Of a stretch of DNA of 62,865 nucleotides, positions 19,337 to 43,494 are shown piece after piece. How positions within the stretch are numbered: the stretch's first letter is position 1; every line of letters begins with the position of its first letter. The notes under the pieces were generated by a model that did no database searches, was not told the DNA's origin, and worked only from the letters and a program-made list of their open reading frames with translations. This DNA comes from a virus: positions 1 to 62,865 of the IMG/VR virus record IMGVR_UViG_3300034023_000183. One strand, written 5' to 3'. Made by a program: the position numbers and the translations under genes.

Positions 19337-19553
19337 CTTTAAATTTACATGGGAACTTATGCAAGTATGGAGTCACCTGCTCAAGCTTGGCAAACTTAAT
19401 GTATTTTCCGTTCTTATCCAAAACTTTTATCTGATTTATTACTATGCCTACACCATCTACGTGTTCGTAGCGTGTAATCTCAAACGATGCTGGCTTTGGA
19501 ACGTCTAGGTCCATCTGCTTAATCAGCTCTTTTACCATTGGATTTTCTAACAT
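19293..19553 (-). CDS. Unknown protein
   Basis: 86 residues starting MLENPMVKEL. A longer version from 19622 (109 residues) would overlap the upstream gene by 104 bases. It contains a beta-rich stretch (YEHVDGVGIVINQIKVLDKNG) and ends in a charged tail. It overlaps the nuclease start by 44 bases. Function not recognised. Confidence 0.5.
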   Translation of the reverse strand: MLENPMVKELIKQMDLDVPKPASFEITRYEHVDGVGIVINQIKVLDKNGKYIKFAKLEQVTPYLHKFPCKFKDVRKQDPDEADQES

Positions 19554-19890
19554 GATATTCTTTTTTAAGTATTTCTTTTTCTTCTGCCAGTCTCTCAATG
19601 AATGTCTCATCTCCGTCATCACCAGAAATCAGCCAGTCAATCCGCTGAGCATATATCTCGGCAAGCCTTAAGATGTAGTATCCTCGCTCAAACTCTTTTA
19701 TGACTTCATCTGGATACTTGTAGTGAAACTTGTCTTCTGGGTATTTTTCATACCATTTGGAGTCTTTCCAGAAATGATCCTTTAATTCTTCCTCTGTCAA
19801 TGGTTGACCGCTTTTCTTTATTTCTTGTTCAATATCATTTGCGATATGTCTAATTTTGTACTGGTTGTAATCAAATGCTCCTCCACTCAT
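19519..19890 (-). CDS. Conserved phage protein starting MSGGAFDY
   Basis: 123 residues, acidic, mostly helical. The opening MSGGAFDYNQYKI is a pattern often seen in small proteins of phages and prophages, with no known function that I can name. The last part (DETFIERLAEEKEILKKEY) is coiled-coil-like. Its start overlaps the stop of the upstream gene by 4 bases. Confidence 0.6.
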   Translation of the reverse strand: MSGGAFDYNQYKIRHIANDIEQEIKKSGQPLTEEELKDHFWKDSKWYEKYPEDKFHYKYPDEVIKEFERGYYILRLAEIYAQRIDWLISGDDGDETFIERLAEEKEILKKEYHVRKSNGKRAD

Positions 19891-21557: not shown

Positions 21558-21892
21558 TCGTTAGGATTTACTTTTTTACATATAAGGATCATGTCCACCC
21601 AGTTATTCATCCACGCCTTGAACTTGTCATCCTCATCCCTATCTAGGTATGTGAAGGCTAGGTTCTTGAAGTGCTTCCTCGTCCGTATCAATGAACTTAT
21701 CGATAGGTCATCGTGGTTGTGGTACTTCATTATCGTGGATACAAAACCTACAAGAGCGATCCCGTCTGTATTTGATACTTGCTTACATGAGTGAACAAAC
21801 TTTTCGCATCCTTCAAGATTGGACAGCTCGCTCACTATGTACTCTTCTGCTTGCTCTGGCTCTAGACCAGAATTTAAAAACTTATGATACAT
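21500..21892 (-). CDS. Unknown protein between two helicase genes
   Basis: 130 residues, helical and acidic, with three Cys. It overlaps the SF2 helicase start by 58 bases and the primase-helicase stop by 11 bases. The context suggests an accessory replication factor such as a loader or adaptor, but the sequence shows no motif that proves it. Confidence 0.5.
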   Translation of the reverse strand: MYHKFLNSGLEPEQAEEYIVSELSNLEGCEKFVHSCKQVSNTDGIALVGFVSTIMKYHNHDDLSISSLIRTRKHFKNLAFTYLDRDEDDKFKAWMNNWVDMILICKKVNPNEWEKKRFLENTRDKEQSKE

Positions 21893-24248
21893 AATTTATT
21901 TCTATTTGCTTTTTTGGTTCTACAAAGGTGATGGTCTTCCCCATCATGTTTCTTGCTTCCTTGAATGGACAACCGTACCTGTACATTGCATAGCTATGCA
22001 TCCATCTGTAGAACGTCCTGTGTGACAGCTTAATCTTACCCATTGGACCGTAGTCTGGGTACTGGTCACAGAAGTCGTTCATGATGTCTTGTGCCACATA
22101 CTCTATGTCTGCTCCAAGTTTGTACTTCATGTCATTCCCAAGTACCCACTCCCTAAACTCTGGCGATGTTGATGCCTCTAGCTTACGGATGGCAAGGTTC
22201 TTAAACGGTGACTCAATTAGACCTCTTTGTAGATACAACTGCAAGCATCCAATCATGTAGTTGTCAAACTTCAACCACTCCTCCTCTGTCCAGTCTGAGA
22301 ACAGCTGGTGTCCGAACTCGTCTGCTGGCGTGAACTCCTTGCGATAGTAATGAGCAAGTTCAAGCTCCCACTTCCTCCTCTCGTTCGAGTTACCAGACCC
22401 CTTCACCGCATAGTTTGTGGTGATGACAACCTTTGGCGACTCCTCGAATGGAATGTATATCTCTTGCTTGTTCTTCTTCTCTACCGTGATACCGTCAGTC
22501 ACAACCGAGAACAGCTTCTCGAAGTTGAAGTTCTTCTCGATATCTTGGAACGTCATTATCTGAGTATCTGCTGACACACGTTGATAGTTAAACGCCTTCT
22601 GGAACGAGAATCCTTTACCATCGATCGTCACGTTCTTTTTGATATAACTGAGTGCGGCTACAAAGATACCCTTACCAGTACCACCCTCTGGATTGTCTGA
22701 TATGGTCTCGTCATTCAGTATGACGGCAGGACAGAACTTAGCAGGCTTGAAGCTGTGTAGTAAGAAACCAATCGTAGACTCCATAGATAGGATTCGCTTT
22801 TCGTCATTGCCAGCGATGTTGTGGATGAACCTTCTGTACTCACAATCATCAACCGATGTCTTCACGAACTTCCTGTCTACCTTCTGGTTGGTCCAGATAT
22901 AACCGTTCAGCTCTGGGTAAGGTATCTGCTCTACCTTGTTTGAGCTTATGCGTAACGCACAGTTCTTGTAGTACAGGTAGCAGCTGTCCTTGTCATCCCT
23001 AATAACCTTTGGGTCAATCGTTGGCAACAGCGATAGGAACTCCTCCTTGCCTAGCTTGATCTTCTCTGCATAGGCATCATAGACCGACATGTCCTCGTTG
23101 TCATCTAGATACTCGAACACAAAGTCACGTATGCCATTGTCCGTAGTGTCTGCCATGATGTTGTTAAGTACACGGACAAACACGAAGTTCTGACTGTTGG
23201 ACGGGTAGTACTTATAGTAGCCATTCGCTGTCAAGAAGTCTCTATACTTATGGTTCACAAAGTCTACGCTACCTCTGTTGTTGCGTGTCCAGAAGTTGTC
23301 ACCCATTACCTTGTCTGTAATTGTCTCGATAATCTCATCAGTCACCTCTGGAATTATTTCCTTGATGACCTCAGCAGGTATAGACTTGGACAGCATGCCA
23401 GTCACTATGTTGACCTTCTCCTCGTCCTCGAACTTCTTAGTGTTGAAGTCTGCGGTGTTCCTGTATGCGGAACGAACTGCCGTTGTAATCTCTGATGCAG
23501 GGAAGTCCGACTGCTCGTATTCACATATAGAACTCAATGCGGTCTCGAAAGGAATGCCGTACTGGTTGTATGCGGCCGCAAGAATGAAGATATTCTTGTT
23601 GCGTGCGCCAGATACCAGACCATAGTCCTTGTTCCACCATCTCTTGAGATACTCTATGGTTTTGTTGTCGTCGTTGAGCGGAATGCTGATTTTCTTGGGT
23701 GTTGTACTGGTCTTTTCTTTAACCTTAGTCCATACATCAGATTCCTTGTCGATGTAAATGTTAGGATCGTAAGACTCGTAACACACACGACTAACATCAG
23801 AACAAGCCATATCAAAATTTGGACTGGCGTAATAATCAGCCAGTGCTTCAAAGTATCCCTTGTGATTTTTTTCATCTTGTGGTATTTTAACTAGAACCTT
23901 TAATCCATCTCCAGATGGAGAAATAAAACATGCGTAGGTGTAGCTGTCGAATTCAAGCTCAAATCTTTTTGATTCAAGCTCATCTTGATCCTTGAAGCCG
24001 TCAAAGTCTATGCACATGAACCCACTATGATGGATAAGTCCATCGGCTGAGCGTTTTGAGAAACTTCCAGAGAAACATACGGCAGGCAGTTTTTTCTTTA
24101 TTACATTCCTTTCTGCCTTCGTCTGAGTCCTCCTTACCTCCTCACAGATTTCCCTAGACTTACCACTCCTCACCCTCTCTAGAGCTGTGTCTATCGATAT
24201 GTGGAAAGGTCTGTCCGTCTTGTGTATACTCTCAAAAATAGTTACCAT
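21882..24248 (-). CDS. Primase-helicase: BT4734/VirE-like N-terminus plus SF3 helicase
   Basis: 788 residues. Residues 1-180 resemble the BT4734-like/VirE N-terminal family found in Bacteroidota mobile elements (key points: CFSGSF, CIDFDGF, FISPSGDGLKVLVK), a primase-type fold. The middle resembles primase C-terminal helical domains (ARNKNIFILAAAYN). The C-terminal half is an SF3-type helicase with Walker A N-P-E-G-G-T-G-K-G near 519-527, Walker B MTFQDI, and motif C with TTN. This is the main replication initiator-type enzyme of the genome and would unwind and prime phage DNA for a host polymerase. Confidence 0.85.
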   Translation of the reverse strand: MVTIFESIHKTDRPFHISIDTALERVRSGKSREICEEVRRTQTKAERNVIKKKLPAVCFSGSFSKRSADGLIHHSGFMCIDFDGFKDQDELESKRFELEFDSYTYACFISPSGDGLKVLVKIPQDEKNHKGYFEALADYYASPNFDMACSDVSRVCYESYDPNIYIDKESDVWTKVKEKTSTTPKKISIPLNDDNKTIEYLKRWWNKDYGLVSGARNKNIFILAAAYNQYGIPFETALSSICEYEQSDFPASEITTAVRSAYRNTADFNTKKFEDEEKVNIVTGMLSKSIPAEVIKEIIPEVTDEIIETITDKVMGDNFWTRNNRGSVDFVNHKYRDFLTANGYYKYYPSNSQNFVFVRVLNNIMADTTDNGIRDFVFEYLDDNEDMSVYDAYAEKIKLGKEEFLSLLPTIDPKVIRDDKDSCYLYYKNCALRISSNKVEQIPYPELNGYIWTNQKVDRKFVKTSVDDCEYRRFIHNIAGNDEKRILSMESTIGFLLHSFKPAKFCPAVILNDETISDNPEGGTGKGIFVAALSYIKKNVTIDGKGFSFQKAFNYQRVSADTQIMTFQDIEKNFNFEKLFSVVTDGITVEKKNKQEIYIPFEESPKVVITTNYAVKGSGNSNERRKWELELAHYYRKEFTPADEFGHQLFSDWTEEEWLKFDNYMIGCLQLYLQRGLIESPFKNLAIRKLEASTSPEFREWVLGNDMKYKLGADIEYVAQDIMNDFCDQYPDYGPMGKIKLSHRTFYRWMHSYAMYRYGCPFKEARNMMGKTITFVEPKKQIEINYVS

Positions 24249-25929: not shown

Positions 25930-26343
25930 TTATTGGGTTACAAAACTATTAAAATTTTCTGAAAGTTCAACATATCGGAACAATTTATTTCTTAAAGTTC
26001 CTCGTCTGCCTTCCAGCTCCTCACACAACTCGGTGTTTCCACGCTCCCTCTCAAGTGCTATCAAGGCATCAACCTTGCGTAGCCTCTCTTTATACGTGTC
26101 AATACACACGTTGTAACATCCAAGTTGCCAACCTTTTTCTGCGAACACCTCATACTGAGCATCCGTCACCTTCTTGTAGAAGTCACCACCTACCATTGCG
26201 TTGTTGATTTCTATCGAGCCGTCCTTCATCTGCTCAATCTTGACACCGTGGTCCATGTACCAGTGCGTGTCTGGGTTTCTTTCATCTCCAGTCCAGTACA
26301 ACGTGATGTACGGATCTTCTTCTAAGTCATTCCATGCTTTCAT
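25930..26343 (-). CDS. Unknown protein
   Basis: 137 residues. The first 50 residues are beta-rich (YITLYWTGDERNPDTHWYM); residues 75-125 form a charged coiled coil (TYKERLRKVDALIALERERG). No catalytic motif seen. It is upstream of the recombination pair in the same operon. Confidence 0.5.
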   Translation of the reverse strand: MKAWNDLEEDPYITLYWTGDERNPDTHWYMDHGVKIEQMKDGSIEINNAMVGGDFYKKVTDAQYEVFAEKGWQLGCYNVCIDTYKERLRKVDALIALERERGNTELCEELEGRRGTLRNKLFRYVELSENFNSFVTQ

Positions 26344-28968: not shown

Positions 28969-28984
28969 AACATTTGATTTTTAG

Positions 28985-29058
28985 TGGACCATGCAGGGAT
29001 CGAACCTGCGACCTTCTGATTATGAGTCAGATGCTCTGACCTATTGAGCTAATGGTCC
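28985..29058 (-). tRNA. tRNA-Met (CAT), possibly tRNA-Ile2
   Basis: A full cloverleaf on the minus strand: acceptor GGACCAT/ATGGTCC with discriminator A, TA at positions 8-9, D-arm GCTC/GAGC, anticodon arm TCTGA/TCAGA with loop CTCATAA (anticodon CAT), and T-arm GCAGG/CCTGC with loop TTCGATC. No CCA is encoded. CAT may read AUG, or AUA if the C is changed to lysidine; the sequence alone does not decide. Confidence 0.93.
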
Positions 29059-29289: not shown

Positions 29290-29320
29290 CAAATATAGGT
29301 AACCTATATCTCTTTCACAA
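29290..29320 (-). promoter_or_regulatory. Promoter of the tRNA cluster, TTG-N20-TATATTTG
   Basis: Minus strand: TTG (29318-29320), exactly 20 bases, TATATTTG (29290-29297). Transcription would begin almost at the first base of the truncated tRNA-like element at 29285. Confidence 0.75.
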
Positions 29321-29561
29321 CTTTATACATTACTTTTTTTGCTATGCCAGTCGTTCGATGCTGGAACACAGCCATGGCTCTCTGCCGATTAATCTCATCC
29401 TGTATCTCCATGCTGACCTGTAGGTTGGTCAACACCAAGGTCACGACAAACGACAATGGTACAAGAAGGACCAAGAACACCAACGGTGCGCCAATCATCC
29501 CGAATAACAGCCCCAACCCCAGTGAGACCGTTGTGCTGAAATATGTTACAAGAAACTTCAT
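29304..29561 (-). CDS. Small two-pass membrane protein
   Basis: 85 residues. Hydrophobic segments at about 2-24 and 27-46 are joined by a short turn; the second half is charged and probably cytoplasmic. Its ATG sits inside the phased ATGTTG repeat element, so its expression may be controlled by whatever binds there. Function unknown; membrane position would suit superinfection exclusion or host takeover. Confidence 0.55.
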   Translation of the reverse strand: MKFLVTYFSTTVSLGLGLLFGMIGAPLVFLVLLVPLSFVVTLVLTNLQVSMEIQDEINRQRAMAVFQHRTTGIAKKVMYKVVKEI

Positions 29562-29772
29562 TATGTTGAATTTATGTTGAATTTATGTTAAAACTTTTTG
29601 GCTAAGTGTCTGATTTATAATACTTCATGTTAGTATGTTGAAACTATCCTATATTCTGAGCAAAAAATAAAAATACAAGAAATAAGAAAAAAGTGTCTCC
29701 AAACCAACATATCGTCATAAACCCAGTGTTTACGGGCATCTATGCAACATATTTTCAACATGTTCCCAACAT
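29561..29772. repeat. Phased ATGTTG/CAACAT repeat element, copy 1
   Basis: Left arm: TATGTT at 29562, 29573 and 29584, spaced exactly 11 bp, then ATGTTAGTATGTTG at 29627-29640. An A-rich core follows (29641-29700). Right arm: CCAACAT near 29704, then CAACAT at 29745, 29756 and 29767, again 11 bp apart and inverted relative to the left arm. The same plan occurs at 35594-35866. The right arm runs into the last codons of the next gene. Candidate origin, partition-like or looping control site. Confidence 0.7.
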
Positions 29773-30024
29773 AAATGTAACATTCCCGTCAGTCAATACC
29801 CCAACCACATACGTGTCCTCGAAGTATAGCTGATACCCGTAGTCAGCGATGAACCGCTTCAAATGTTTCTCGATCGATCGTCTAACCTCATCGCCTTCAA
29901 TCGACATTGAGGACTTCGACATCCAGAGCTTTGTTGTCGGCTCACAATCATCACCCGTGGCGAGGTTGTAGTAGGCTACCCGATTGTCGAGTAGCCTGTC
30001 TACGAATCCAAATAGATTTTTCAT
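29755..30024 (-). CDS. Small unknown early protein
   Basis: 89 residues, alpha/beta, no recognised motif. Its ATG is preceded by AGGAG, one of the few Shine-Dalgarno-like sites in this block. Its last codons (FMLGTC) are made from the CAACAT repeats of the phased element. Confidence 0.55.
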   Translation of the reverse strand: MKNLFGFVDRLLDNRVAYYNLATGDDCEPTTKLWMSKSSMSIEGDEVRRSIEKHLKRFIADYGYQLYFEDTYVVGVLTDGNVTFMLGTC

Positions 30025-30041
30025 AGCTCCTAAGTTTTAAG

Positions 30042-30278
30042 TTATTGTTCATCATCCATTTCGGGCATTCCATCGTAAAAGAAGTCGGGGCAGTCAGACA
30101 TGTCCATGTCTTGTTTGCACGAATAACAAGTTATCGTATTGTCCTTGTCAAAGTCATTTAGCGATACCATCCTGTGCAGGATTACAGCTCCGCAGTTGCC
30201 ACATGTCACCATATTTATGTCAGCCATAGCCCTAATCTCATTCATGAGTTCGAGCTGATATTTAAGTGTTCCTTCCAT
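30042..30278 (-). CDS. Small zinc-ribbon protein
   Basis: 78 residues. C-x2-C near residues 26-29 (TCGNCG) and a second C-x2-C near 51-54 (TCYSCK) form a zinc-ribbon knuckle pair. The C-terminus is very acidic (MPEMDDEQ). Such small ribbons in phages often bind nucleic acid or a host RNA polymerase; which one cannot be told here. Start follows the TTAGAAATC-ATG leader. Confidence 0.6.
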   Translation of the reverse strand: MEGTLKYQLELMNEIRAMADINMVTCGNCGAVILHRMVSLNDFDKDNTITCYSCKQDMDMSDCPDFFYDGMPEMDDEQ

Positions 30279-30290
30279 GATTTCTAAGTT

Positions 30291-30575
30291 TTAAAATACA
30301 CCAATACTTCTCAGTGCGTTCGCATCTGAGTCAAAATTTCTCAAGTCGATGGACTTACCCAAGTCCTTCACGTACTCATACAGCTCCCGTGTCTCTGCAT
30401 CCATGAATAGTATGTGCCCGATACCTACCTTGTACGGGTTGCTGTACGACTGGATGCCGTTCCACACGGCTGACCCATAAGTGTTCATTGGGGGACACTT
30501 CTTCTTGATCATCCCCTTGTTTGGTCCTACGCTTACTATGGCTTCCTGTAGGCCGATTTCTAGTTTGTCTTTCAT
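30291..30575 (-). CDS. Small unknown early protein
   Basis: 94 residues starting MKDKLEIGLQEA, chosen because the common leader (AAACTTAGAAACC) lies directly before it; an ATG 24 bases earlier has no leader and overlaps the upstream gene. Contains a KKKCPP and a YKVGIGHILF segment. Function unknown. Confidence 0.55.
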   Translation of the reverse strand: MKDKLEIGLQEAIVSVGPNKGMIKKKCPPMNTYGSAVWNGIQSYSNPYKVGIGHILFMDAETRELYEYVKDLGKSIDLRNFDSDANALRSIGVF

Positions 30576-30586
30576 GGTTTCTAAGT

Positions 30587-31102
30587 TTAAAATGTCCAAT
30601 CATAATGGTAGTCGCAAGCACCAAACAAGATGTTGATTTTGCTGTACCCCTTCTTCTTACGTGTGATTCCTTCCACCACGTTCTTAGGTCTAATGTCACC
30701 TCCGTACACCGCCTCCTGCTGTTCTTCAGTCAGAGACTTGAACAAGGCGAAGATGCCATTGGAGTTAGCCTGCTCAATCCACTCGTCCGTGAATACCACC
30801 TCGTGGTATACCTCCTTCCATCCACCATTGCGGTAGCGTAGTGTACGCAGGTGACCCGTTGGTGTGTGCTCCCAATGTTGATGACCCATGCCTATCTTTC
30901 GACCCATCTCTGAGGCGATGGTGCTGTAGTCCTCGATGATTACCGTCTTGCCGTCCTTGGATACGTCCACGACCTTGGCTACGTCTCGGTCTGAGTAGTG
31001 ACATATGGTTGCCCACTCGCCCACTACAGGCACGGATGAGTTGTTTGACATGAGCCAGTTAAAGAACGAGCCCGAAGTCTTAAGTGATTTTGTCTGATTC
31101 AT
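30587..31102 (-). CDS. Unknown early protein, 171 residues
   Basis: The longest gene of the small-gene block. It has a beta-rich central part with several His residues (MGHQHWEHTPTGHLRTLRY) and a basic C-terminal third. I see no known catalytic signature. It looks like a phage-specific protein. The ATG follows the CTAGAAATC leader. Confidence 0.55.
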   Translation of the reverse strand: MNQTKSLKTSGSFFNWLMSNNSSVPVVGEWATICHYSDRDVAKVVDVSKDGKTVIIEDYSTIASEMGRKIGMGHQHWEHTPTGHLRTLRYRNGGWKEVYHEVVFTDEWIEQANSNGIFALFKSLTEEQQEAVYGGDIRPKNVVEGITRKKKGYSKINILFGACDYHYDWTF

Positions 31103-31107
31103 GATTT

Positions 31108-31338
31108 CTAGTGTTTTAAATAAAAAAATACCTCGTCGCTTGTCAAGTCATTCTCGAAGATGACCTCATCCATTAGACATGAGCCGAACCCAGATGCATA
31201 GTTAAAGGCTACAGCCTTGGCTCTCATTACCGACTCGTCTCTTGAATCCTCATCGAAACTCTCTTCGAAGCATATTGTCTGTACGTACGTTGCATACACC
31301 TTGGTCGGTGTGATGATTACATTGATTTTTGTTGGCAT
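31108..31338 (-). CDS. Small acidic early protein
   Basis: 76 residues, beta-strand start (KINVIITPTKVYATYVQ) followed by an acidic helix region. The ATG follows ACTAGAAATC. Acidic small early proteins are common among host takeover factors, but nothing here proves that. Confidence 0.5.
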   Translation of the reverse strand: MPTKINVIITPTKVYATYVQTICFEESFDEDSRDESVMRAKAVAFNYASGFGSCLMDEVIFENDLTSDEVFFYLKH

Positions 31339-31343
31339 GATTT

Positions 31344-31523
31344 CTAGTTGTTAAGGTACGTTTCGTAAATTTCTACTAATTCTTCTCCGTCAACTATAAA
31401 CGGCTCTTCCTCTTCCAAGAACCCAAATTTACCATTGTCCGTTACTTCAAATTTATCATCGTCAATTCTTGAGATATCAAAACCTGCTTTCAATAATTCT
31501 TCAAATGCTTTTTTCGTTTCCAT
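31344..31523 (-). CDS. Small acidic protein, 59 residues
   Basis: Starts METKKAFEEL and ends IYETYLNN. It is strongly acidic (EEEEPF stretch). It fits exactly between neighbours and has the TTTAGAAATC-ATG leader, which makes it a likely gene despite its size. Confidence 0.55.
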   Translation of the reverse strand: METKKAFEELLKAGFDISRIDDDKFEVTDNGKFGFLEEEEPFIVDGEELVEIYETYLNN

Positions 31524-31570
31524 GATTTCTAAAGTTTAAGTTGGTTTGTTCAATCGTTCACAATCACGCC

Positions 31571-31816
31571 TCATAGGGAGGCGATGATTTTAAATAGTCG
31601 CACCTTGTTTGAGTCTATCAATCTATGAAGGTCGTGGAAGTCCTCGCTACCAATGTAGCTTGGTCCAAGCAATTCAATACGTTCGGCTATGTTCTGCTCA
31701 AACAATGATATTGAGTGAAGCAATGACAAAGCTTCAGTCAACTCAGCTGATTTTACCTTGTCACCATCAATGTGCATCCTTAACAATGATAGTGTTGTCT
31801 CGTGTCTTTTGTTCAT
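31571..31816 (-). CDS. Small helical early protein
   Basis: 81 residues, fully helical in appearance, no motif. A CGCCTC/GAGGCG hairpin (31567-31583) covers the stop codon and could protect the mRNA end. Function unknown. Confidence 0.5.
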   Translation of the reverse strand: MNKRHETTLSLLRMHIDGDKVKSAELTEALSLLHSISLFEQNIAERIELLGPSYIGSEDFHDLHRLIDSNKVRLFKIIASL

Positions 31817-31820
31817 GATT

Positions 31821-32009
31821 TTAAAATTTTAATATGAATCTATCCTCTCTTCCTGCTTTATTCTCACCTTCATTGAATTCTTCTGGTGTCTTGTAGTCTG
31901 TCTCATAGTAACTATTGAATTCGTCTAGGAACTCAAATAGTTGTTCGTCCCCATTGAATCTTTGATTCCCGTCGGCATCTTGCACGACATAAATGTGCTC
32001 TCTTTTCAT
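31821..32009 (-). CDS. Small acidic early protein
   Basis: 62 residues, rich in Glu, Asp and aromatic residues (FEFLDEFNSYYETDY). The acidic-aromatic surface could mimic DNA, as in some phage anti-restriction proteins, but this is speculation from composition. Confidence 0.5.
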   Translation of the reverse strand: MKREHIYVVQDADGNQRFNGDEQLFEFLDEFNSYYETDYKTPEEFNEGENKAGREDRFILKF

Positions 32010-32034
32010 GATTACTTGTGTTTAATGGTTTATA

Positions 32035-32316
32035 CTATTGTGCACACAGCTCCCAAGTCTGCAATGCCAACATTTTTTTCTTCGTTAAGCCTAGCTCCTT
32101 GATAATGAACTTGGCTAGCTTGGTGTTGCCTGCCATACCCTCGCTAATTTCACCCGTGCCAATGGCATCTACAACGTCTCTAGGTGACAAGCCTAGCACT
32201 CGGCTACAGAACTTTACGTCCTGTCCTAGGTAAAACGACTTCACACCCTCTACTACTAGCGTCCATTCGTGCCCGAACCCGTAGCTACCTCTTGTAATTT
32301 TGATTGTTGCTTTCAT
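32035..32316 (-). CDS. Small unknown early protein
   Basis: 93 residues. The first 30 residues look like beta strands (TIKITRGSYGFGHEWTLVVEG), the rest helical. No motif recognised. Member of the same minus-strand operon. Confidence 0.5.
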   Translation of the reverse strand: MKATIKITRGSYGFGHEWTLVVEGVKSFYLGQDVKFCSRVLGLSPRDVVDAIGTGEISEGMAGNTKLAKFIIKELGLTKKKMLALQTWELCAQ

Positions 32317-32326
32317 GTGCTTATGT

Positions 32327-32683
32327 TTATCGGTTTAAAAATTTTTTCGTGTAGTCTCTATCTGAGATGGCTTTGTAGTCATTCGTAATGAACGGGTTCT
32401 TTAACACGTTCTTGAACGTCCGTCCGTTTGGCATGCTGTACTCTATCACGTACCCATGTTCGGGTGAATAGTCGATGAAGTGTCCGTCTCTATCCGCTTG
32501 GTTTCTAAACACTGATACATGGACACCATTAAGAAGTATCTGTACCTCTCTCATGACAAAGTCCACTAGTATTTTCTTACCTTCTAGGACGTACTCCAAC
32601 GTGACTATGTTACCTGTCATCTCGTGTACTCTGTAGGCGTTGCCTCTCATGTCTCTGTGGTTTACATTTACAATTGCTTTCAT
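32327..32683 (-). CDS. Unknown early protein, beta-rich
   Basis: 118 residues, mostly predicted strands, basic C-terminus (DRDYTKKFLNR). No known motif. The start follows TTTAAAATTATTTAATC. Confidence 0.5.
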   Translation of the reverse strand: MKAIVNVNHRDMRGNAYRVHEMTGNIVTLEYVLEGKKILVDFVMREVQILLNGVHVSVFRNQADRDGHFIDYSPEHGYVIEYSMPNGRTFKNVLKNPFITNDYKAISDRDYTKKFLNR

Positions 32684-32685
32684 GA

Positions 32686-32919
32686 TTAAATAATTTTAAA
32701 TGGTACATGTGTAAGGTCATACTTTATGCCCTCTATTGATTGGTTGTCGACATAATCTATCCTGTCGAACTCTATTTCCCCGTCTACTAACAAGGAAACT
32801 TCTAACTCGCCTTGGCTTATTGCCTCCTCAATTAAGAACTCGTCCGATAGCTCGATCAAGTCGTCAGCCCCCCTGTCTCTCAAGTATTGGGCTATGGTCT
32901 GTTTTGTTTGATACTTCAT
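32686..32919 (-). CDS. Small acidic early protein
   Basis: 77 residues; the first half is a charged helix (AQYLRDRGADDLIELSDEFL), the second half strand-like. Strongly acidic overall. ATG after ACTAGAAACC. Function unknown. Confidence 0.5.
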   Translation of the reverse strand: MKYQTKQTIAQYLRDRGADDLIELSDEFLIEEAISQGELEVSLLVDGEIEFDRIDYVDNQSIEGIKYDLTHVPFKII

Positions 32920-32928
32920 GGTTTCTAG

Positions 32929-33258
32929 TTATTTAATGGTTAAAAAATACGCCTCGTCAAACGGGTAACGCTCACCTGTGTAGTTGTCGTTGAAGACTAG
33001 CTCGCCATCCCCATTGAAACGGAAGGCGATAGCGTCCTGCGTGAACACATAGACAAGACCTTGAATCATTATCCTTATGTCGTCTTGTGATGAGTCAGTA
33101 TAGAATTCCATTACCACGGTAGGCTCGTCAGCTCCCTCCCATTCGCCTACCTGTACGTTGTGTTTAACCGACGTGTACGAAGACACAAACGGCATAACTA
33201 TTTCCTGTGCTGTGAATGGGTTGTTGTTCAACCCAATGTTCATTTCAATTTTGTTCAT
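32929..33258 (-). CDS. Unknown early protein
   Basis: 109 residues, mixed alpha/beta, acidic. The central IRIMIQGLVYVFTQDAIAFRF is the most hydrophobic part but too polar for a membrane helix. ATG follows the consensus leader TTTAAACACTAGAAATC. Function unknown. Confidence 0.5.
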   Translation of the reverse strand: MNKIEMNIGLNNNPFTAQEIVMPFVSSYTSVKHNVQVGEWEGADEPTVVMEFYTDSSQDDIRIMIQGLVYVFTQDAIAFRFNGDGELVFNDNYTGERYPFDEAYFLTIK

Positions 33259-33283
33259 GATTTCTAGTGTTTAAAGGTTGCCT

Positions 33284-33324
33284 GCGGTGGCTATCTTGTG
33301 GCGCATAGCCCACTCATCCACCGC
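33284..33324. other. Nested inverted repeats in a 157-bp intergenic gap
   Basis: GCGGTGG (33284-33290) pairs with CCACCGC (33318-33324), and GGCTAT pairs with ATAGCC inside or instead of it. The gap 33259-33415 has no credible gene. It may be a structured leader or RNA processing site in the early transcript. Confidence 0.4.
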
Positions 33325-33415
33325 TTGTTGGCGTTATACATTTGTTTGTTTGTGGGTCGGATACCTGCTGTTGCAGTACATGGTAGTTAGCTCAAAGCAC
33401 CCATCCCCTTTTGTC

Positions 33416-33574
33416 TTACTTGCCTATCACCACCTCGGTGTCTAAGTGCTCGGCAACTATGCCAATCAGCTCTAGGCGTTGTAGATTTGTTGCGGTAGCG
33501 TAAAGCTCCCGTAGTTTCTGTGCTGTAGCCGAGTCCAACTCAGCTATCAGCTCTTCGAATTTGCGTTCAAACAT
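33416..33574 (-). CDS. Small helical early protein
   Basis: 52 residues starting MFERKFEELI. The longer frame to 33631 overlaps the upstream gene and reads through the leader. Heptad-like Leu spacing suggests a helical hairpin. Function unknown. Confidence 0.5.
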   Translation of the reverse strand: MFERKFEELIAELDSATAQKLRELYATATNLQRLELIGIVAEHLDTEVVIGK

Positions 33575-33620
33575 GTTACTTGTTTTATGGTTAAGACCCC
33601 ACGAAGGGGGTTTCGCTGAC

Positions 33621-33866
33621 CTACAGCTCATCAGTTAACCTCTTGTATTTTTTAGGTATCTTGTTATACATTCTCATGGTATGGGTGGATGACCAACAAT
33701 TCAAATATACCTCTGTAATTACTATCGTCTTGGCGTTAACTCCGCTGTGCAATAGCAACGTGCCCAAGCCTACTCCACCTTCCTCAATCTGAAGGACCTC
33801 GCCTTCATATTCGTTTACGTATCTGTCGATGATATCTTGTACGTACTTTAAGCTAAATGTTCTCAT
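33621..33866 (-). CDS. Small unknown early protein
   Basis: 81 residues. Central Gly-rich turn (EEGGVGLGTLLLHSGV) and basic end. ATG follows AAACTAGGAAACC. Function unknown. Confidence 0.5.
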   Translation of the reverse strand: MRTFSLKYVQDIIDRYVNEYEGEVLQIEEGGVGLGTLLLHSGVNAKTIVITEVYLNCWSSTHTMRMYNKIPKKYKRLTDEL

Positions 33867-33886
33867 GGTTTCCTAGTTTTAAATGT

Positions 33887-33994
33887 TTATTTCCAATTCG
33901 TTACGAGACGACGTGTCTCTTTGATTTTTACCCCGTTCAAAAAGTAGCCAATAATCTCATACTGACCCTCAATTCTCAAAATTTTTGCTTCCAT
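33887..33994 (-). CDS. Very small basic protein, 35 residues
   Basis: Starts MEAKILRIEG and ends TRRLVTNWK. It is preceded by the leader (AACAGGAAACC-ATG) and fills the gap between two genes, which supports translation. Function unknown. Confidence 0.45.
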   Translation of the reverse strand: MEAKILRIEGQYEIIGYFLNGVKIKETRRLVTNWK

Positions 33995-34008
33995 GGTTTC
34001 CTGTTTTT

Positions 34009-34194
34009 TTAGTCGTTAATGTCTTCGTTGTGCTCAAATGTACCCGTCTCTAAGTACTCCAGTATCTCACCTCTGTAGGCATACTCCACGAGTATGTCAT
34101 TGTTGTCGATGGTGTAGATTGTACGACCATCTACGTCGCCTGTTGGTCTGATGACTCCCGTCACCACGTACCAAATGAAAATAATGTTTGTCAT
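34009..34194 (-). CDS. Small acidic early protein
   Basis: 61 residues, starts MTNIIFIWYVVTGV (hydrophobic, but only about 14 residues) and ends with an acidic tail (FEHNEDIND). Function unknown. Confidence 0.5.
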   Translation of the reverse strand: MTNIIFIWYVVTGVIRPTGDVDGRTIYTIDNNDILVEYAYRGEILEYLETGTFEHNEDIND

Positions 34195-34212
34195 AATAAT
34201 TGTGTGTTAACC

Positions 34213-34389
34213 TTATTTTTTGGTGTAGTATACACCCTCGTGCATTACCTTGCCTGTCTTAGAATTGACGTACAACGTGTAGACCATGTACTTGTAGCCT
34301 TTACGCTTTGCATGTGGTGTAATTTTGTCTGTTTTGGTCCATGTCACATGCATGTCGCCATTCAGTTTTTGGAAGATTACTTCGTTCAT
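34213..34389 (-). CDS. Small basic protein, first gene of the early operon
   Basis: 58 residues starting MNEVIFQKLN. The frame upstream to 34512 reads through the tRNA-like structure and is not credible. Strand-rich, Lys/Tyr-rich. As the first gene after the promoter at 34932-34962 it should be among the earliest proteins made. Confidence 0.55.
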   Translation of the reverse strand: MNEVIFQKLNGDMHVTWTKTDKITPHAKRKGYKYMVYTLYVNSKTGKVMHEGVYYTKK

Positions 34390-34409
34390 GATATTGTGTT
34401 TTAAGTTAG

Positions 34410-34455
34410 TCCCCATGCAAGGTTGCGACCCTTGATTAACTCGCTCGACATGGGG
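34410..34455 (-). ncRNA. tRNA-like element without anticodon arm (46 nt)
   Basis: Minus strand: CCCCATG pairs with CATGGGG (7 bp) followed by A as discriminator. A T-arm-like hairpin CAAGG, loop GTCGCAA, CCTTG lies directly inside the 3' half. Only 14 bases are left for everything else. The plan is the same as the 49-nt element at 29126, with a slightly changed T-loop. Confidence 0.55.
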
Positions 34456-34925
34456 TTGAAGTAAGTAGGGGTTGACCTGCACCCCATAAGGAATTGCCAT
34501 CTTTTCTCGCAAGGCTGTGCGACTTACTCCTCAGTGTTTTTATTCGCAGGGGCTAGCACCATTCCCCCCAATGTATGGTTGTCTTGCAATCATTACCCCT
34601 GCGGTTGCTTCCACGCCATATCTAACAGCGTTTACCTTCTCGCAGGTCTTTTTTGCATCGTGCATCTTTCCATGATGCGTTTCCATACTTCAGACCGCCT
34701 TGACTAGATTAGGTGGATGCATTGTTACCACCGACAACGAAACCTCTCAGCGAGGGAAATTACTCGAATTACGTGCCTAGATTAGACTGAATTAATGAAA
34801 CCGCAATGTCAAAGAACGTGTGTGTATTCGTATTGTAGCTCACTCGCTGTACTTGTCATGTTCCGTGGTTGGCTGTGTCACCCCCTTTTAATTACGTTAA
34901 GACTTGTAGTGTTTAGCTCGTTTGC
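34456..34925 (-). ncRNA. Structured, probably transcribed leader of the early operon
   Basis: About 470 bases without a credible gene, downstream of a strong minus promoter. Long closing stems are visible: AGTAAGT/ACTTACT (34460-34528, enclosing GGGGT/ACCCC and CGCA/TGCG hairpins), CGCAGGGG/CCCCTGCG (34545-34603), GCATC/GATGC near 34655-34678, and GGTGG/CCACC (34712-34732). Two of these units have near-tRNA size. They may be diverged tRNA-like RNAs or regulatory structures. Confidence 0.45.
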
Positions 34926-34931
34926 TTGAAT

Positions 34932-34962
34932 CAAAATTACTTCAGCACTTTCGATATTGCAA
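34932..34962 (-). promoter_or_regulatory. Early promoter TTG-N20-TAATTTTG (minus)
   Basis: Minus strand: TTG at 34960-34962, exactly 20 bases, TAATTTTG at 34932-34939. It faces the whole minus-strand block and is the most upstream promoter I find for it. Confidence 0.75.
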
Positions 34963-34985
34963 GCTTTTTTCAAATTATTTTTGGG

Positions 34986-35066
34986 TACGTAGATGATTTA
35001 GAGTAGAACTACGTAGATGGTACTAAGTAGAAATACGTAGATGGGATCTAAGTAGAAATACGTAGA
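34986..35066. repeat. Four iterons, 24-25 bp apart
   Basis: TACGTAGA occurs at 34986, 35010, 35034 and 35059 (spacing 24, 24, 25). The units also share GTAGAA near their ends (TAAGTAGAAA in two). The core TACGTA is a palindrome. Directly repeated sites of this kind are typical of initiator or regulator binding. They lie just behind the early minus promoter. Confidence 0.7.
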
Positions 35067-35122
35067 CAGACGGGTTTGCATCCATTGTTTTACAGGTTAA
35101 GCTGTTGACAGATAGGACTTTA

Positions 35123-35561
35123 TACGTGAATTCATTTAGGTGGGCCAAATATCTTTGGGGCTGATAGGTAGATAGGTGGGATGATTCTATGTGCGAGGGA
35201 GTGCGTGCCGTATCAATTGGCGTATGGGTGCACGGCATGTCGGAAAGCATGCATGCTCGTGCGTCATGCGTGACGTGTGACATGTGCGTGCAACACGTAT
35301 GCGTGTACGTCGAGCGAGCGAGCGACATGTGTGTGTGCATGCATACATGTGGGCAGGCAGGCATGTCACCTGTGCGTGCGAGCGTACACGTGGGCGGACG
35401 GGCGGTAGGCACACAGGCAGGTGTGCACGTGTGACGTGGGCATGAGCACGCATGATGGCATGCCTACAGGAAAAGCCAAAAATTCCTAGGCAATTTACCG
35501 AATTGGACACCCCCCATCACGAATTCAACTAGTTTCCGTGCGTGCATGCGTACGTGAATTC
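35123..35561. other. GC-rich alternating purine/pyrimidine island between direct repeats
   Basis: From about 35185 to 35465 the composition changes sharply: rich in GTGCG, CATG, ACGT, TGCATGC and GTGTGTG, with a triple GAGC repeat and two GGCAGGCAGG-like tracts, in a genome that is otherwise AT-rich. The island lies between two 11-bp direct repeats TACGTGAATTC (35123-35133 and 35551-35561). Long alternating purine/pyrimidine tracts favour Z-DNA or easy cruciforms. Open frames here are low-complexity and not genes. The role could be origin, packaging site or foreign insert. Confidence 0.5.
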
Positions 35562-35593
35562 TATATATTATCCGATACCCCCGATCGTGCAGC

Positions 35594-35866
35594 TATGTTG
35601 GATTATGTTGGTTTATGTTGAATTTATGTTGGTTTGAAGTGCCTCAAACCCTTGATTTTCCTCACTTTATGTTAGTATGTTATAACTTTCTCTACTTTTC
35701 ACGAAAAAAAAAATAATACATAATATAGGAGATATATACTTAATAAATGCAGAAAAAAGTAAAAAACGCTTATCAAACCAACATACCAACATGAATGTCT
35801 GATTATCAACACTTTAGCCCAGATAATTCAACATGCTTTCAACATGTACTATAGGTGTTTCAACAT
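35594..35866. repeat. Phased ATGTTG/CAACAT repeat element, copy 2
   Basis: Left arm: TATGTTG at 35594, 35604, 35614 and 35625 (10, 10, 11 bp), then TATGTTAGTATGTTA at 35668-35682. A-rich core 35700-35765. Right arm: TCAAACCAACAT ending at 35784, CAACAT at 35787, then at 35829, 35840 and 35861 (11 and 21 bp). Copy 1 at 29561-29772 has the same order, including the ATGTTAGTATGTT pair and the AAACCAACAT box. Confidence 0.7.
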
Positions 35867-35885
35867 ATCTATGGGTTTTTCACCA

Positions 35886-35955: not shown

Positions 35956-36588
35956 ATGGCATATATAGAGCACAATTTCTTTCCTCTCAAGGTATTTGTT
36001 AGGAATGAGTACATGTACCAGCAGACGAAGGGTCATGGTGAGTTCACCCCAGGGGTAGTCATATCTGTTAGATGCATGCCTGGTCAGGCTGCACTGTTCC
36101 AGGTCTTGCTAGAGAACGGTGTCCTACGGGACAAGCTACCGAGCCACGCACTGTTGACATCACCAGAGCTACCAGATCCAGACCTACCGTTCCACTATCT
36201 ACAGCTGTGGAACTGTTTCTCTTACAACTTCACGTTGGTGAGTCTGTCATATCTGTACGACACACCAGTCGAGGTGTACATGAAGGACAAGAAGTTTTAC
36301 CCAGGTGTTTACTACGGCACGATAAACTGGGGGTCTAACGACCTAAACACTGACATATCTTTGGCAGAGGATCCGCTGGAGCACAAGAGTCACCACATCA
36401 TACTACTTGACAACGGTCAGATAGCTTTGCAGCCTAACAACAGGATCAAGTGGTCGGAGCCAAGCTTTGTTACGAAGCCGTTCCCAGAGAAGCCAGACTA
36501 CTTAGTGAACAAGGAGTGGTTCAACTGTGAGGGCTACGAAAAATGGCATACTGAGGACTCCGAAAGGATGTTCTATGACAATGAATAA
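35956..36588 (+). CDS. Unknown protein, first gene of the rightward block
   Basis: 210 residues, rich in aromatic residues and Pro. It has a short strand-rich N-terminus (FFPLKVFVRNEYMY), a VVISVRCMPGQAALFQVLLENG segment and a C-terminal half with many Trp, Tyr and His. No membrane segment or known catalytic motif. Placed directly behind the palindromic operators, it is probably under strong control, and a regulatory or early-late switch role is possible. Function unknown. Confidence 0.6.
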   Translation: MAYIEHNFFPLKVFVRNEYMYQQTKGHGEFTPGVVISVRCMPGQAALFQVLLENGVLRDKLPSHALLTSPELPDPDLPFHYLQLWNCFSYNFTLVSLSYLYDTPVEVYMKDKKFYPGVYYGTINWGSNDLNTDISLAEDPLEHKSHHIILLDNGQIALQPNNRIKWSEPSFVTKPFPEKPDYLVNKEWFNCEGYEKWHTEDSERMFYDNE

Positions 36589-36607: not shown

Positions 36608-37045
36608 ATGAAGAATAACAAGCCAAGAGTAAGAGAGGGTATGGTTGTCGGAAATCGTAAATCATACGCTAGAAATATGCGTGCTGGTGTTACACCTATG
36701 GACAACAACGGTGACAACTCTACACATGTAATGTCTTGGGGAGGTGGTGGTCCTGGATCTAAAAAATACAAGTACTCTGTAAACCCAACCATATTTACAG
36801 ATGACAAAGGTAAGACGTGGAATAACTTGAGCGAAAAGCCTAAAGAGGCATATGATGAGGCAAAGAAGCGTGGAGAGGTGATTGGATTCAGATCTGCCAA
36901 GCGAGCTGAAAAGTTTGCTGCTGGAAGTTGGAAGAAAGGTGCGGACAGAAAAGAGGCGATGAAGAGCTATAGGGGTGCCAAGAAGAAAAAGGAGCTATAC
37001 ACTCAGTCTGAAGAGTTTAAGAAAGAAAAGAAAAATAGAAGATAA
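36608..37045 (+). CDS. Small basic phage protein
   Basis: 145 residues, very rich in Lys, Arg and Gly. It starts with a basic segment containing VVGNRKSYARNMRAG, then a Gly run (SWGGGGPGS), and ends in Lys-rich sequence. Possibly a nucleic-acid-binding or packaged protein. It shares one base with the next start (TAATG). Confidence 0.55.
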   Translation: MKNNKPRVREGMVVGNRKSYARNMRAGVTPMDNNGDNSTHVMSWGGGGPGSKKYKYSVNPTIFTDDKGKTWNNLSEKPKEAYDEAKKRGEVIGFRSAKRAEKFAAGSWKKGADRKEAMKSYRGAKKKKELYTQSEEFKKEKKNRR

Positions 37046-37383
37046 TGCCAAAGGATTCCTGCTATAAAAAGGTGAAGGCTCAGTACGATGTATTTCCATC
37101 GGCACGAGCGTCACAGGCTATCGCCAAGTGTAGGAAGTCATCTGGTAACGTGAAGAAGACAAAATCTGGATCCGATCTGAAGAGATGGGAGGCTGAGAAG
37201 TGGGTCGACACAAAGACTGGTAAGGAGTGTGGAGCTGGAGGTAGGAACGAATACTGTCGACCGACAAAGCGAATGTCCAAGGACACACCTAAGACGAAGT
37301 TTGAGCTGTCGCCATCTAAACTTAAGGCCAAGAAGGCTGAGAAGTCGAGAGTTGGAATGGGAAAACGAGTGAAGAGCGTGTAA
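37045..37383 (+). CDS. DUF5872-like protein
   Basis: 112 residues, basic. The pattern YDVFPSARASQAIAKCRK, then RWEAEKWVDTKTGKECGAG and EYCRPTKRMSKDTP fits the DUF5872 family found in phages and large viruses. Three Cys may bind zinc. The function of the family is not known to me. A terminator follows. Confidence 0.65.
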   Translation: MPKDSCYKKVKAQYDVFPSARASQAIAKCRKSSGNVKKTKSGSDLKRWEAEKWVDTKTGKECGAGGRNEYCRPTKRMSKDTPKTKFELSPSKLKAKKAEKSRVGMGKRVKSV

Positions 37384-37466: not shown

Positions 37467-39056
37467 ATGATACCAAAAAGAGTTTATTTAGGTAATTCTG
37501 GGCACGAAAAGCTAAAAAACGGAATTAGAAAGCTGACTGGAGCAGTCGAATCAACGCTCGGACCATACGGTGAGACCGTACTGATGGAGTCAGAGAACCA
37601 TGTAGGTGGTGTAGTCATCACGAAGGACGGTGTATCGATCGCCAAGAACATTAATCTGTACGATCCAGTGGAGAATCTGGCTGTAAGCATCGTAAAGGAG
37701 GCTGCCAAGAAGACGGCAGTGGCTGCTGGTGACGGTACGACAACATCTATTGTGTTGACGAACGCCATATTGGAGGCTGCTGACAAGTACATGGAGCCAG
37801 GTATGAACAAGACGAACGTCATCCGACACATCAACAAGATACTTGACGACTCGATTTCTTTCTTGGCGAAAAAGGCTAGGCCAGTAAATGGCACGGATCT
37901 GGTGGACGTTGCTACGATCTCGGCAAACAATGACCCAGATTTGGGTAAGATGATCGCTGACGTGTATGACCAGGTTCGAGTAGTTACGGTTGAGAACTCA
38001 AAGACACCAGTGACGTACTCTGAGATCATACATGGTATGAAGGTGGACCGAGGTTGGTCGAGCAAGTTCTTCGTTACTGACGAGAAGAAGGAGGAGTGTG
38101 TGCTTGAGAATCCATACGTGTTGTTGTGTGATCTTGAGATTAACAACTTCCAATCTATCTTCAACGCTATCGAGCCAGTTGTGAAGCAAGGACGACCGTT
38201 GTTGATTATCGGTAATCTTTCGCAGAACGCACAGAACACGTTGAACTTAAACGTGGTGAAGAAGGTGATCAAGGCGTGTCATATTCAGCCACCATCTATG
38301 GGCTACCGCAAGGACGACTTGATGAACGACTTGTCTATGGTCTTGGATGCACGCATCTACTCTGAGAAGACTGGTGATGATCTTCAGTTGATCGAGTTTG
38401 ATGGATTGGGGCAAGCTGCAAAGATTATTGTTACCAAGGACCGTACTATTATCATGCGTCATGCTAATGCAGACGACGAGGCTATCGAGAGCTATATCGG
38501 AGATCTTAAGGATCAGCTATCAGAGGCAGTTACACAGACTGAACGAAACGACTTGATGGAGCGTATTGCAAACATCAGTGGAGGTGTTGGTGTCATACAT
38601 GTGGGTGCAAATTCTGATATCGAGCAGAAGGAGAAGTATGACCGTGTTGACGATGCTGTTCGTGCAGTAGGTGCTGCATTGGAGGAGGGAATTCTTCCTG
38701 GTGGTGGTATTGCACTAGCTAGAGCACTTGAGAACATTAAGGACGATGGTAAGGATAAGGAGTATACGGTTGCGGCTGACATTATGGCTTATGCTATGGC
38801 GAAGCCTACGGCACAGATAATGATCAATGCTGGTCTTGACTACATGAAGATATGTGAGCCGTTGTTTAAGAAGAAGTTCGACTACGGGTATGATGTGAAG
38901 AACGGCAAGTACGGATCTATGTACAAGATGGGTGTTATTGACCCAGCATTGGTGACAAAGAGTGCCTTGAAGAACGCAGTGTCTGTAGCTACAACGATTA
39001 TGTCTACGCAGGCAATTATTACTAACATGAGAGAGGACGACAATGAAAAGTGTTAA
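37467..39056 (+). CDS. groEL: Phage chaperonin GroEL
   Basis: 529 residues, full length for GroEL apart from the tail. Visible landmarks: TLGPYG and KDGVSIAK near the start (ATP pocket Asp), GDGTTT near 88-93, apical domain with DRGWSSKFFV and PLLIIG, DDAVRAVGAALEEGILPGGG (catalytic Asp), and MGVIDPALVTKSAL near the end (adenine site). The usual Gly-Gly-Met C-terminal tail is missing; it ends NEKC. The apical domain is the least like host GroEL, as expected if it is tuned to phage proteins. It should fold capsid or tail proteins in the host cytoplasm. Its last 14 bases overlap groES. Confidence 0.95.
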   Translation: MIPKRVYLGNSGHEKLKNGIRKLTGAVESTLGPYGETVLMESENHVGGVVITKDGVSIAKNINLYDPVENLAVSIVKEAAKKTAVAAGDGTTTSIVLTNAILEAADKYMEPGMNKTNVIRHINKILDDSISFLAKKARPVNGTDLVDVATISANNDPDLGKMIADVYDQVRVVTVENSKTPVTYSEIIHGMKVDRGWSSKFFVTDEKKEECVLENPYVLLCDLEINNFQSIFNAIEPVVKQGRPLLIIGNLSQNAQNTLNLNVVKKVIKACHIQPPSMGYRKDDLMNDLSMVLDARIYSEKTGDDLQLIEFDGLGQAAKIIVTKDRTIIMRHANADDEAIESYIGDLKDQLSEAVTQTERNDLMERIANISGGVGVIHVGANSDIEQKEKYDRVDDAVRAVGAALEEGILPGGGIALARALENIKDDGKDKEYTVAADIMAYAMAKPTAQIMINAGLDYMKICEPLFKKKFDYGYDVKNGKYGSMYKMGVIDPALVTKSALKNAVSVATTIMSTQAIITNMREDDNEKC

Positions 39057-42316: not shown

Positions 42317-42547
42317 ATGAGATATAAATTCCCTTTATTTGAAAATGTGATCGAAGATCCAATGGTAGAGATATCAAGCATAAACATCGACATAAAAAAC
42401 AAGATATGTCGTGCTGAATTGATTCTAACAGAGAATTTCAATGAGTACGGTGTAAGCCTGGATGGATTTGCGTACAAGTATCCATTCAAAGAAGAAGAGA
42501 TATTTACTTGGATATTTTCTGAGTTGACAAAGTACGAGATAGACTAG
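42317..42547 (+). CDS. Small unknown protein
   Basis: 76 residues starting MRYKFPLFEN. An upstream ATG at 42284 lies inside the previous gene and is not used. Acidic alpha/beta. It converges with the minus-strand gene, overlapping it by 4 bases. Confidence 0.5.
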   Translation: MRYKFPLFENVIEDPMVEISSINIDIKNKICRAELILTENFNEYGVSLDGFAYKYPFKEEEIFTWIFSELTKYEID

Positions 42548-43029
42548 TACTCTATCCTAGTAGACACCTTGTTCTTTCTTACGTGTTCGTTGAACTTCTT
42601 TACGGACATCCACAGCACACGATCTGAATACTTGCGTGATGTCACTAACGGGTTGTGTTTAGAACTCTCTGGTATCTCTACCTCACCGTTTAGCTGTTTG
42701 TATAGATTAGTGCAGACATGTCTGCCGTGTCGTGTAAGCTCATATAGCCTATAGCTGCCACGATATTTGTCGTGCCACATATGAATCCAACCTTCCTCTT
42801 TAAGTCTCACAAATCGCTTTATATCCCACGACATGGTGTTTGTATACTCCTTGTAGTCATAGTATGTGAATAGTCCTTCTGAGTATAGATAAAGAAGAAC
42901 CTCTAGATCTTGTTCTGATAGATTGTACTTTATCTGTGTGTACCGTCTAACTACCCTCCAGTATTTCAAGAAGTCATTCTTTACTTGTCTTCTGGTATAA
43001 TGTCTCTGGATTTGCTTTTTGATTTTCAT
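42544..43029 (-). CDS. Winged-helix DNA-binding regulator (MarR-like)
   Basis: 161 residues, basic. Residues 38-110 show a winged-helix layout: LSEQDLEVLLYLYSEG, a recognition-helix region (SWDIKRFVRLKEEGWI) and a wing (HDKYRGSYRLYELT) followed by LTRHGRHVCTNLYKQL. It is the only minus-strand gene in the rightward half. Best candidate for the phage's own repressor or switch protein; its sites may be the palindromes at 35886-35944. Confidence 0.7.
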   Translation of the reverse strand: MKIKKQIQRHYTRRQVKNDFLKYWRVVRRYTQIKYNLSEQDLEVLLYLYSEGLFTYYDYKEYTNTMSWDIKRFVRLKEEGWIHMWHDKYRGSYRLYELTRHGRHVCTNLYKQLNGEVEIPESSKHNPLVTSRKYSDRVLWMSVKKFNEHVRKNKVSTRIEY

Positions 43030-43045
43030 ATGTCAACAAATTTCG

Positions 43046-43053
43046 TAAATTTG
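43046..43053 (+). promoter_or_regulatory. TAAATTTG promoter element
   Basis: TAnnTTTG match 8 bases before the ATG at 43062, in the space between the divergent regulator gene and the next plus-strand unit. Autoregulation by the neighbouring regulator is possible. Confidence 0.55.
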
Positions 43054-43061
43054 CAACTGAT

Positions 43062-43253
43062 ATGCAAATAAAAGTGATCAAAAAACAAAAGGGTGTCGGA
43101 GATACCGTTGAGATGCTTTTGAAGGCTACTGGAATTCACTATATTGCTAACGCAATACAGAACGGAGATCCAACGCAGCCGTGTAAGCCGTGTCAACAAA
43201 GAAAAGAAGAACTGAATAAAAAGTTTCCGTATGGGTCAAAGCAAGACATCTAA
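43062..43253 (+). CDS. Small protein with Cys pair
   Basis: 63 residues, Lys-rich, with C-x2-C (PCKPCQQRK) near residue 41-44. Such a single pair could bind metal in a dimer. The start of the next gene overlaps its end by 23 bases. Confidence 0.5.
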   Translation: MQIKVIKKQKGVGDTVEMLLKATGIHYIANAIQNGDPTQPCKPCQQRKEELNKKFPYGSKQDI

Positions 43254-43494
43254 GTATTACGCTGAAAATCCTACGGCAGCTGAGAAGAGACGAGAGTCTC
43301 AAAGAAAGATAAACAAGAAGGCTGGAATGTCTGAGTATAGATCCTTGTTGAACAAGGCAAACAGAAAGGCTGGAACATATGGTAATGGTGATGGCTTTGA
43401 TATGTCTCACACAAAGGCTGGAAAACTTGTAAAGGAGAAAGCTACAAAGAATAGATCCAGAAATGGTGCAAACGGAAAAAGTACAAAGAAATGA
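43231..43494 (+). CDS. Small basic phage protein
   Basis: 87 residues, strongly basic. KYYAENPTAAEKRRESQRKINKK and GTYGNGDGFDMSHTKAGKLV with a final NGKSTKK match a protein common in aquatic phages, position usually near structural or lysis genes. Function unknown; perhaps a DNA-associated virion protein. Confidence 0.6.
   Translation: MGQSKTSKYYAENPTAAEKRRESQRKINKKAGMSEYRSLLNKANRKAGTYGNGDGFDMSHTKAGKLVKEKATKNRSRNGANGKSTKK

Follow-up and report, generated by a model that had tools for sequence, protein, structure and literature searches.

Paired, helically phased repeat elements as candidate replication-initiation sites in podoviruses related to Elemovirus

What purpose could two elements of short phased repeats, built on one plan and set 6 kb apart in one phage genome, serve? 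The question arises in the window, which is the whole stretch of DNA analyzed and comprises a virus record 62,865 bp long. A 10-bp overlap of its ends and an ORF that continues from 59391 across the junction to base 513 suggest that the phage genome is complete and circularly permuted. Its replication genes are read leftward from about 35 kb and its structural genes rightward from 35,956; in the structural half, 7203-17090 encodes one protein of 3295 aa, and giant ORFs recur at the same position in relatives. A preliminary description had placed twin elements of phased ATGTTG/CAACAT repeats in this genome. Both were read directly in the window sequence where it had placed them, with element A being slightly larger (29542-29783) than described. 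The elements and the genes referred to below are as follows.

29542..29783, plus strand: element A, whole; conserved in L114 and L217
29562..29589, plus strand: left array of A, two TATGTTG and one TATGTTA at 11-bp steps; a further in-phase site at 29542-29547
29603..29615, minus strand: IHF-like site of A, TAAGTGTCTGATT (reverse complement AATCAGACACTTA), matching WATCARnnnnTTR
29627..29639, plus strand: site pair of A, ATGTTAGTATGTT, 8-bp step, 42 bp past the last array site
29641..29702, no strand: AT-rich core of A, 76% AT
29705..29783, minus strand: inverted arm of A, CAACAT at 29705, 29745, 29756 and 29767, and AACAT at 29779
35594..35867, plus strand: element B, whole; conserved in L004, L102 (left half) and L228
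35594..35631, plus strand: left array of B, four TATGTTG at steps of 10, 10 and 11 bp
35645..35657, minus strand: IHF consensus site of B, CAAACCCTTGATT (reverse complement AATCAAGGGTTTG), identical in L004
35669..35681, plus strand: site pair of B, ATGTTAGTATGTT, 43 bp past the last array site
35683..35776, no strand: AT-rich core of B, 79% AT
35780..35792, minus strand: inverted site pair of B, AACATACCAACAT, AACAT at 35780/35788
35804..35816, plus strand: second IHF consensus site of B, in the right arm, TATCAACACTTTA; as TAAAGTGTTGATA on the minus strand of L004
35829..35867, minus strand: right array of B, CAACAT at steps of 11 and 21 bp, separated from the inner pair by a 42-bp gap
21882..24248, minus strand: primase-helicase (BT4734-like N-terminal part, PriCT_1, DUF5906), a candidate initiator; PHROG label primase/helicase
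37467..39056, plus strand: groEL, 1.6 kb downstream of element B
48683-50890: terminase
28984-29058: tRNA-Met gene, 0.5 kb from element A

Element A is flanked by genes 29755-30024 and 29304-29561 (both minus strand) of the leftward replication operon and lies 6 kb from element B, which is intergenic at the divergence of the leftward and rightward transcription units. Gene 29304-29561, read leftward, has its start codon directly against the left array of A, and the inverted arm of A overlaps the 3' end of gene 29755-30024. ATGTT recurs in A at 29563, 29574 and 29585, with one more in phase at 29543, and at 29627/29635 in the pair, and the inverted AACAT is found at 29706, 29746, 29757, 29768 and 29779. 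The corresponding positions in B are 35595, 35605, 35615 and 35626 for the left array, 35669/35677 for the pair, and 35830, 35841 and 35862 for AACAT in the right array. In a motif test across relatives, the IHF-like site of A was identical in sequence in L114.

Several other features surround the elements. Genes 35956-36588 and 36608-37383 separate element B from groEL; the former, which adjoins B and carries a doubtful PHROG label of 'ferredoxin', appears to move between unrelated phages, because close relatives (~90% identical) are present in hundreds of viral contigs, some of them >100 kb. Directly beside B, 35051-35500 is the strongest alternating purine/pyrimidine stretch of the window, with CGTACG and GTGCATGC runs and an alternation of 0.72 vs a median of 0.49, and the strongest such stretch of MW202828 (L084), at 42851-43300, is also beside the groEL-side element; these stretches are possibly Z-DNA-prone. 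The tRNA was the sole match in an Rfam scan and also the only match when 29.0-36.5 kb was compared at the DNA level with the phage collection. In relatives such as L101, G011 and G034, a tRNA-like sequence is present just upstream of the groEL-side element.

The repeats exceed what chance would supply. TATGTTG occurs 33 times in the window vs 13.1 expected, a number that none of 100 shuffles reached. The full half-module regex gave six matches in the window and none in 200 first-order Markov simulations, and five phased triples were present vs a mean of 0.005 in 200 such simulations. Close relatives keep both elements, as listed above.

The elements belong to a widespread family carried by Elemovirus-related podoviruses of ~60 kb (Bacteroidetes). 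The portal protein of the window scores 58% against that of MW202828 and 48% against that of Elemovirus, and also has matches in Cellulophaga phages. Searching viral contigs for the pattern recovered the module from many phages, a sizeable share of which are ~60 kb in length, and a rough and approximate dereplication by shared 7-mers left 35 viral matches. The half-module consists of 2-4 TATGTTG(A) sites at 10-11 bp steps followed by an IHF-consensus site, a pair of sites 8-9 bp apart and an AT-rich core. Past the core lies an inverted site or pair, often a full inverted arm, and the two-armed elements are A and B of the window and those of G025, G053 and G041. The distance that separates array and pair belongs to one of the whole-turn classes of 31-32, 41-43, 51-53 and 64 bp, corresponding to 3-6 helical turns, in 30 of the 35 non-redundant matches, although the elements share descent and these 30 cases are not 30 independent events. 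The classes were not imposed by the search, because it allowed any spacer of 25-55 bp. Seven chance matches from 257 Gb of prokaryote contigs included no whole-turn gap, and their gaps scatter, as do those of the other five viral matches.

The strict IHF consensus was found in 17 of 30 spacers, against a shuffle mean of 0.23 and a maximum of 3 in 1000 shuffles. Almost all of these sites share one strand and lie -23/-24 or -33 to -35 from the pair, positions that are one turn apart. Neither these spacer sites nor the fixed array-to-pair gap had been noticed in the preliminary description, which had suggested that bound protein folds or bridges the DNA. A protein-folded DNA would fit, because the IHF-consensus site lies between the array and the pair, as expected for a folded nucleoprotein complex. 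The cores are 75% AT vs 62% for the loci, and the core was the higher in 28 of 29 cases. TAG/TAC tracts are weakly enriched in the cores (7 of 29 vs a shuffle mean of 2.0), and a reading of them as DnaA-trios was dropped on account of the weak enrichment and the inconsistent strands.

Among relatives the plan is kept and the site is changed, reading ATGTTG, ATGTCG, ATGACG or GTGTTGA, with ATGTCG in MW202828, ATGTC in G055, ATGAC in G053, and GTGTTGA in G049 and G044. A blind scan for any 5-mer repeated according to this spacing plan returned 25 clusters in related phage sequence totaling 1.15 Mb, part of which had been fetched by the ATGTT pattern, vs one cluster in simulated sequence matched to it; a whole-turn gap is present in 23 of the 25. 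The portal-fetched G049, G044, G053 and G055 are the independent part of the test, and it is here that the other site words came up. With the whole-turn gaps and the same plan recovered blindly, the helical phasing and mirrored arms noted earlier are real and conserved. Elemovirus has no element in the 50 kb scanned. We found no description of such elements in the open-access papers searched.

Two genomic positions recur. At the primase locus, the array is 8-40 bp from the start codon of the primase-helicase (n=14 elements), and at the groEL locus the core is 143-327 bp upstream of groEL (n=8 elements). Most near-complete records that were read have two elements per genome, 6-16 kb apart, and both elements were found together in the window, G001 (L090), G027 (L225), G013, G018, G023, G034, G010, G011, G037, G008 and MW202828; no groEL-side element was seen in G029. 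An element at another place in the replication operon is present in the window, G041, G049 and G053; element A and that of G041 are still against a gene start. Where both elements of a genome are one-sided, they share the same genome direction while their neighbor genes read opposite ways, which counts as one observation rather than many because the loci are syntenic. An intrinsic terminator 115-131 bp past the pair shields the primase-side element in 8 of 14 cases. In L100, L197 and L203, and by eye also in MW202828, the groEL-side element is followed by the Bacteroidetes-type promoter motif TTG-N18-22-TAnnTTTG. GC skew turns at B, as does transcription, and was set aside as origin evidence because it fails to separate replication from transcription.

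Which protein might bind the sites? The candidates are a DnaA domain IV, which most relatives encode as a stand-alone protein, and the primase-helicase. The former (PF08299) is present in 18 of 30 element records; its gene encodes a product of ~100 aa and lies about 2-4 kb from the primase-side element in most element genomes. Its AlphaFold model has a pLDDT of 93, and its best ten PDB matches are all DnaA, with TM of 0.69-0.80, giving it a better-supported DNA-binding fold than the primase-helicase. No recognizable gene for this domain was found in the window, G025, G049 or G044; the neighbor of the gene is retained in the window (25930-26343). An HTH-like gene of the window (18444-18854), in the operon position of the second DnaA-domain protein, gave an AlphaFold model too poor to use (pLDDT 40). 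Among 23 portal relatives outside the element list, the pattern matched in two, each of which has a DnaA domain, and such a domain also occurs in three others that lack a pattern match. Further small DnaA-domain-like genes, some side by side, occur in element-bearing phages (G029 19395-19790, minus strand; G001 13906-14635).

The primase-helicase fits the presence pattern better than DnaA domain IV, because it is full length in every element genome with the region available (about 20), and Elemovirus, in which the 50 kb scanned contained no element, shares only residues 2-279, the first third. Its C-terminal region is conserved; a profile of this region gave no significant PDB match and pieces of it no Pfam match, and profiles of the protein and of the region found no solved DNA-binding relative. 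Another possible DNA-binding candidate is the product of window gene 42544-43029 (minus strand), which opposes the structural operon near groES/groEL. It has no Pfam match, its homologues occur in nearly all relatives and in Elemovirus, and the one in MW202828 is labeled 'repressor protein'.

Of the functions offered in the preliminary description, an origin is the best supported, and we see about an even chance that the elements are paired sites of replication initiation, comparable in action to oriC or P4 ori/crr. We infer that at each element a phage initiator complex would assemble and thereby begin, or license, replication of the phage genome. Protomers of the initiator would bind the array co-operatively, in helical register on one DNA face, and a host IHF/HU-type protein would bend the DNA at the IHF site, so that the array folds back onto the site pair that borders the AT-rich core. 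The core would then melt and admit the phage primase-helicase, together with the host replisome, and a full or partial mirror arm would allow the same process from both sides. The two sites may co-operate as twin origins, or as an origin and a helper site, like ori and crr in phage P4, or they may serve as alternatives to each other.

The left half of E. coli oriC has the order DUE, R1, IHF site, R5M and low-affinity boxes in a DnaA system, for which the IHF consensus and the role of IHF have been described (PMC5742627). The elements likewise have an AT-rich region (judged by AT content) beside inner site(s), an IHF site in the spacer between the DUE-proximal site and the array, an array in one orientation and a spacing constraint, and most element-bearing relatives encode a DnaA domain IV protein, as in oriC's DnaA system. 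Unlike oriC, the elements are twin, have partial or full mirror arms and use the site TATGTTG(A) instead of the DnaA box TTATCCACA; the array consensus TATGTTGA has only partial similarity to the reversed DnaA box TGTGGATAA. The phage protein is domain IV alone, and no gene for it or for DnaA was found in the window, an absence that, with that in G025, G049 and G044, argues against an origin. A domain-IV-only protein is also without the DnaA domain that grips melted DNA.

Satellite phage P4 offers another parallel, since it likewise has two separated cis sites with the same repeats, ori1 and crr, and a multifunctional primase-helicase; its system also involves looping. P4 alpha binds the origin repeats by a winged helix, then unwinds and primes (PMC4234260). 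The elements differ from P4 in repeat sequence, IHF sites and mirror arms, and, unlike for alpha, no sequence evidence indicates that the element primase-helicase binds the repeats. Lambda ori, with its O iterons, and IHF-using iteron plasmid origins (pSC101, R6K) have iterons beside an AT-rich region and IHF bending. The elements share with them iterons beside an AT-rich region, an IHF site and close replication genes, and differ in having two sites per genome, a split array and inner pair at whole-turn spacing, and mirror symmetry. No O- or Rep-type initiator was found.

A transcription-control element, serving as an early/late switch, is the main rival, which we regard as somewhat unlikely. 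A phage regulator on the arrays, aided by the IHF bend, would switch the primase/replication and groEL/structural units together. This accounts well for the position of the elements, which lie where transcription units begin, either past a terminator and close to the start codon of the primase, or ahead of groEL with the host-type promoter motif following, and for the symmetric element B between divergent units; a transcription regulator would equally give a fixed element beside a start codon or upstream of such a promoter. However, that motif occurs within none of the 14 primase-side elements, the polarity is not fixed, as the array is gene-proximal at one locus and the core at the other, and a simple operator would hardly be expected to have an AT-rich core and a terminator shield. 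A dual role, with origin arrays that additionally regulate the neighboring primase and groEL promoters by repression or activation, is plausible, at a low probability. Iteron initiators often regulate their own operons, and the closeness of the array to the primase start codon in 14 elements and the host-type promoter beside groEL-side elements agree with this reading, which nevertheless inherits the evidence gaps of both parent readings and is inseparable from them by sequence.

An attP-like integration site or a transposition site is very improbable. Arm-type repeats, an IHF site and a core do resemble lambda attP, and the tRNA-Met gene is close to A, but each genome has two copies, the repeat of the inner pair is direct rather than inverted, and no integrase was found among the scanned proteins; no prophage copies were seen, prokaryote genome contigs giving only 8 chance-like matches. 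We give equally little credence to a packaging (cos/pac) or partition (parS) site. Lambda cosB likewise has repeats around an IHF site, but neither recurrent locus adjoins the terminase, and two copies per genome do not suit either function. Nothing was found for the partition-like site proposed earlier, and no ParA/ParB was noticed among the scanned proteins.

If the elements are paired initiation sites, they may, more tentatively, represent a new class of phage replication system, in which helically phased sites at two fixed positions act with host IHF/HU and are served by a stand-alone DnaA DNA-binding domain and/or the primase-helicase, with site and protein co-diverging. To our knowledge, most Bacteroidetes phages have no known start of replication. 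An element with fixed geometry and two predictable positions, findable by spacing alone, would provide a map of possible copying starts, and a blind spacing scan detects it even after the site sequence has changed. The stand-alone DnaA DNA-binding domains would, in turn, be possible phage initiators or regulators.
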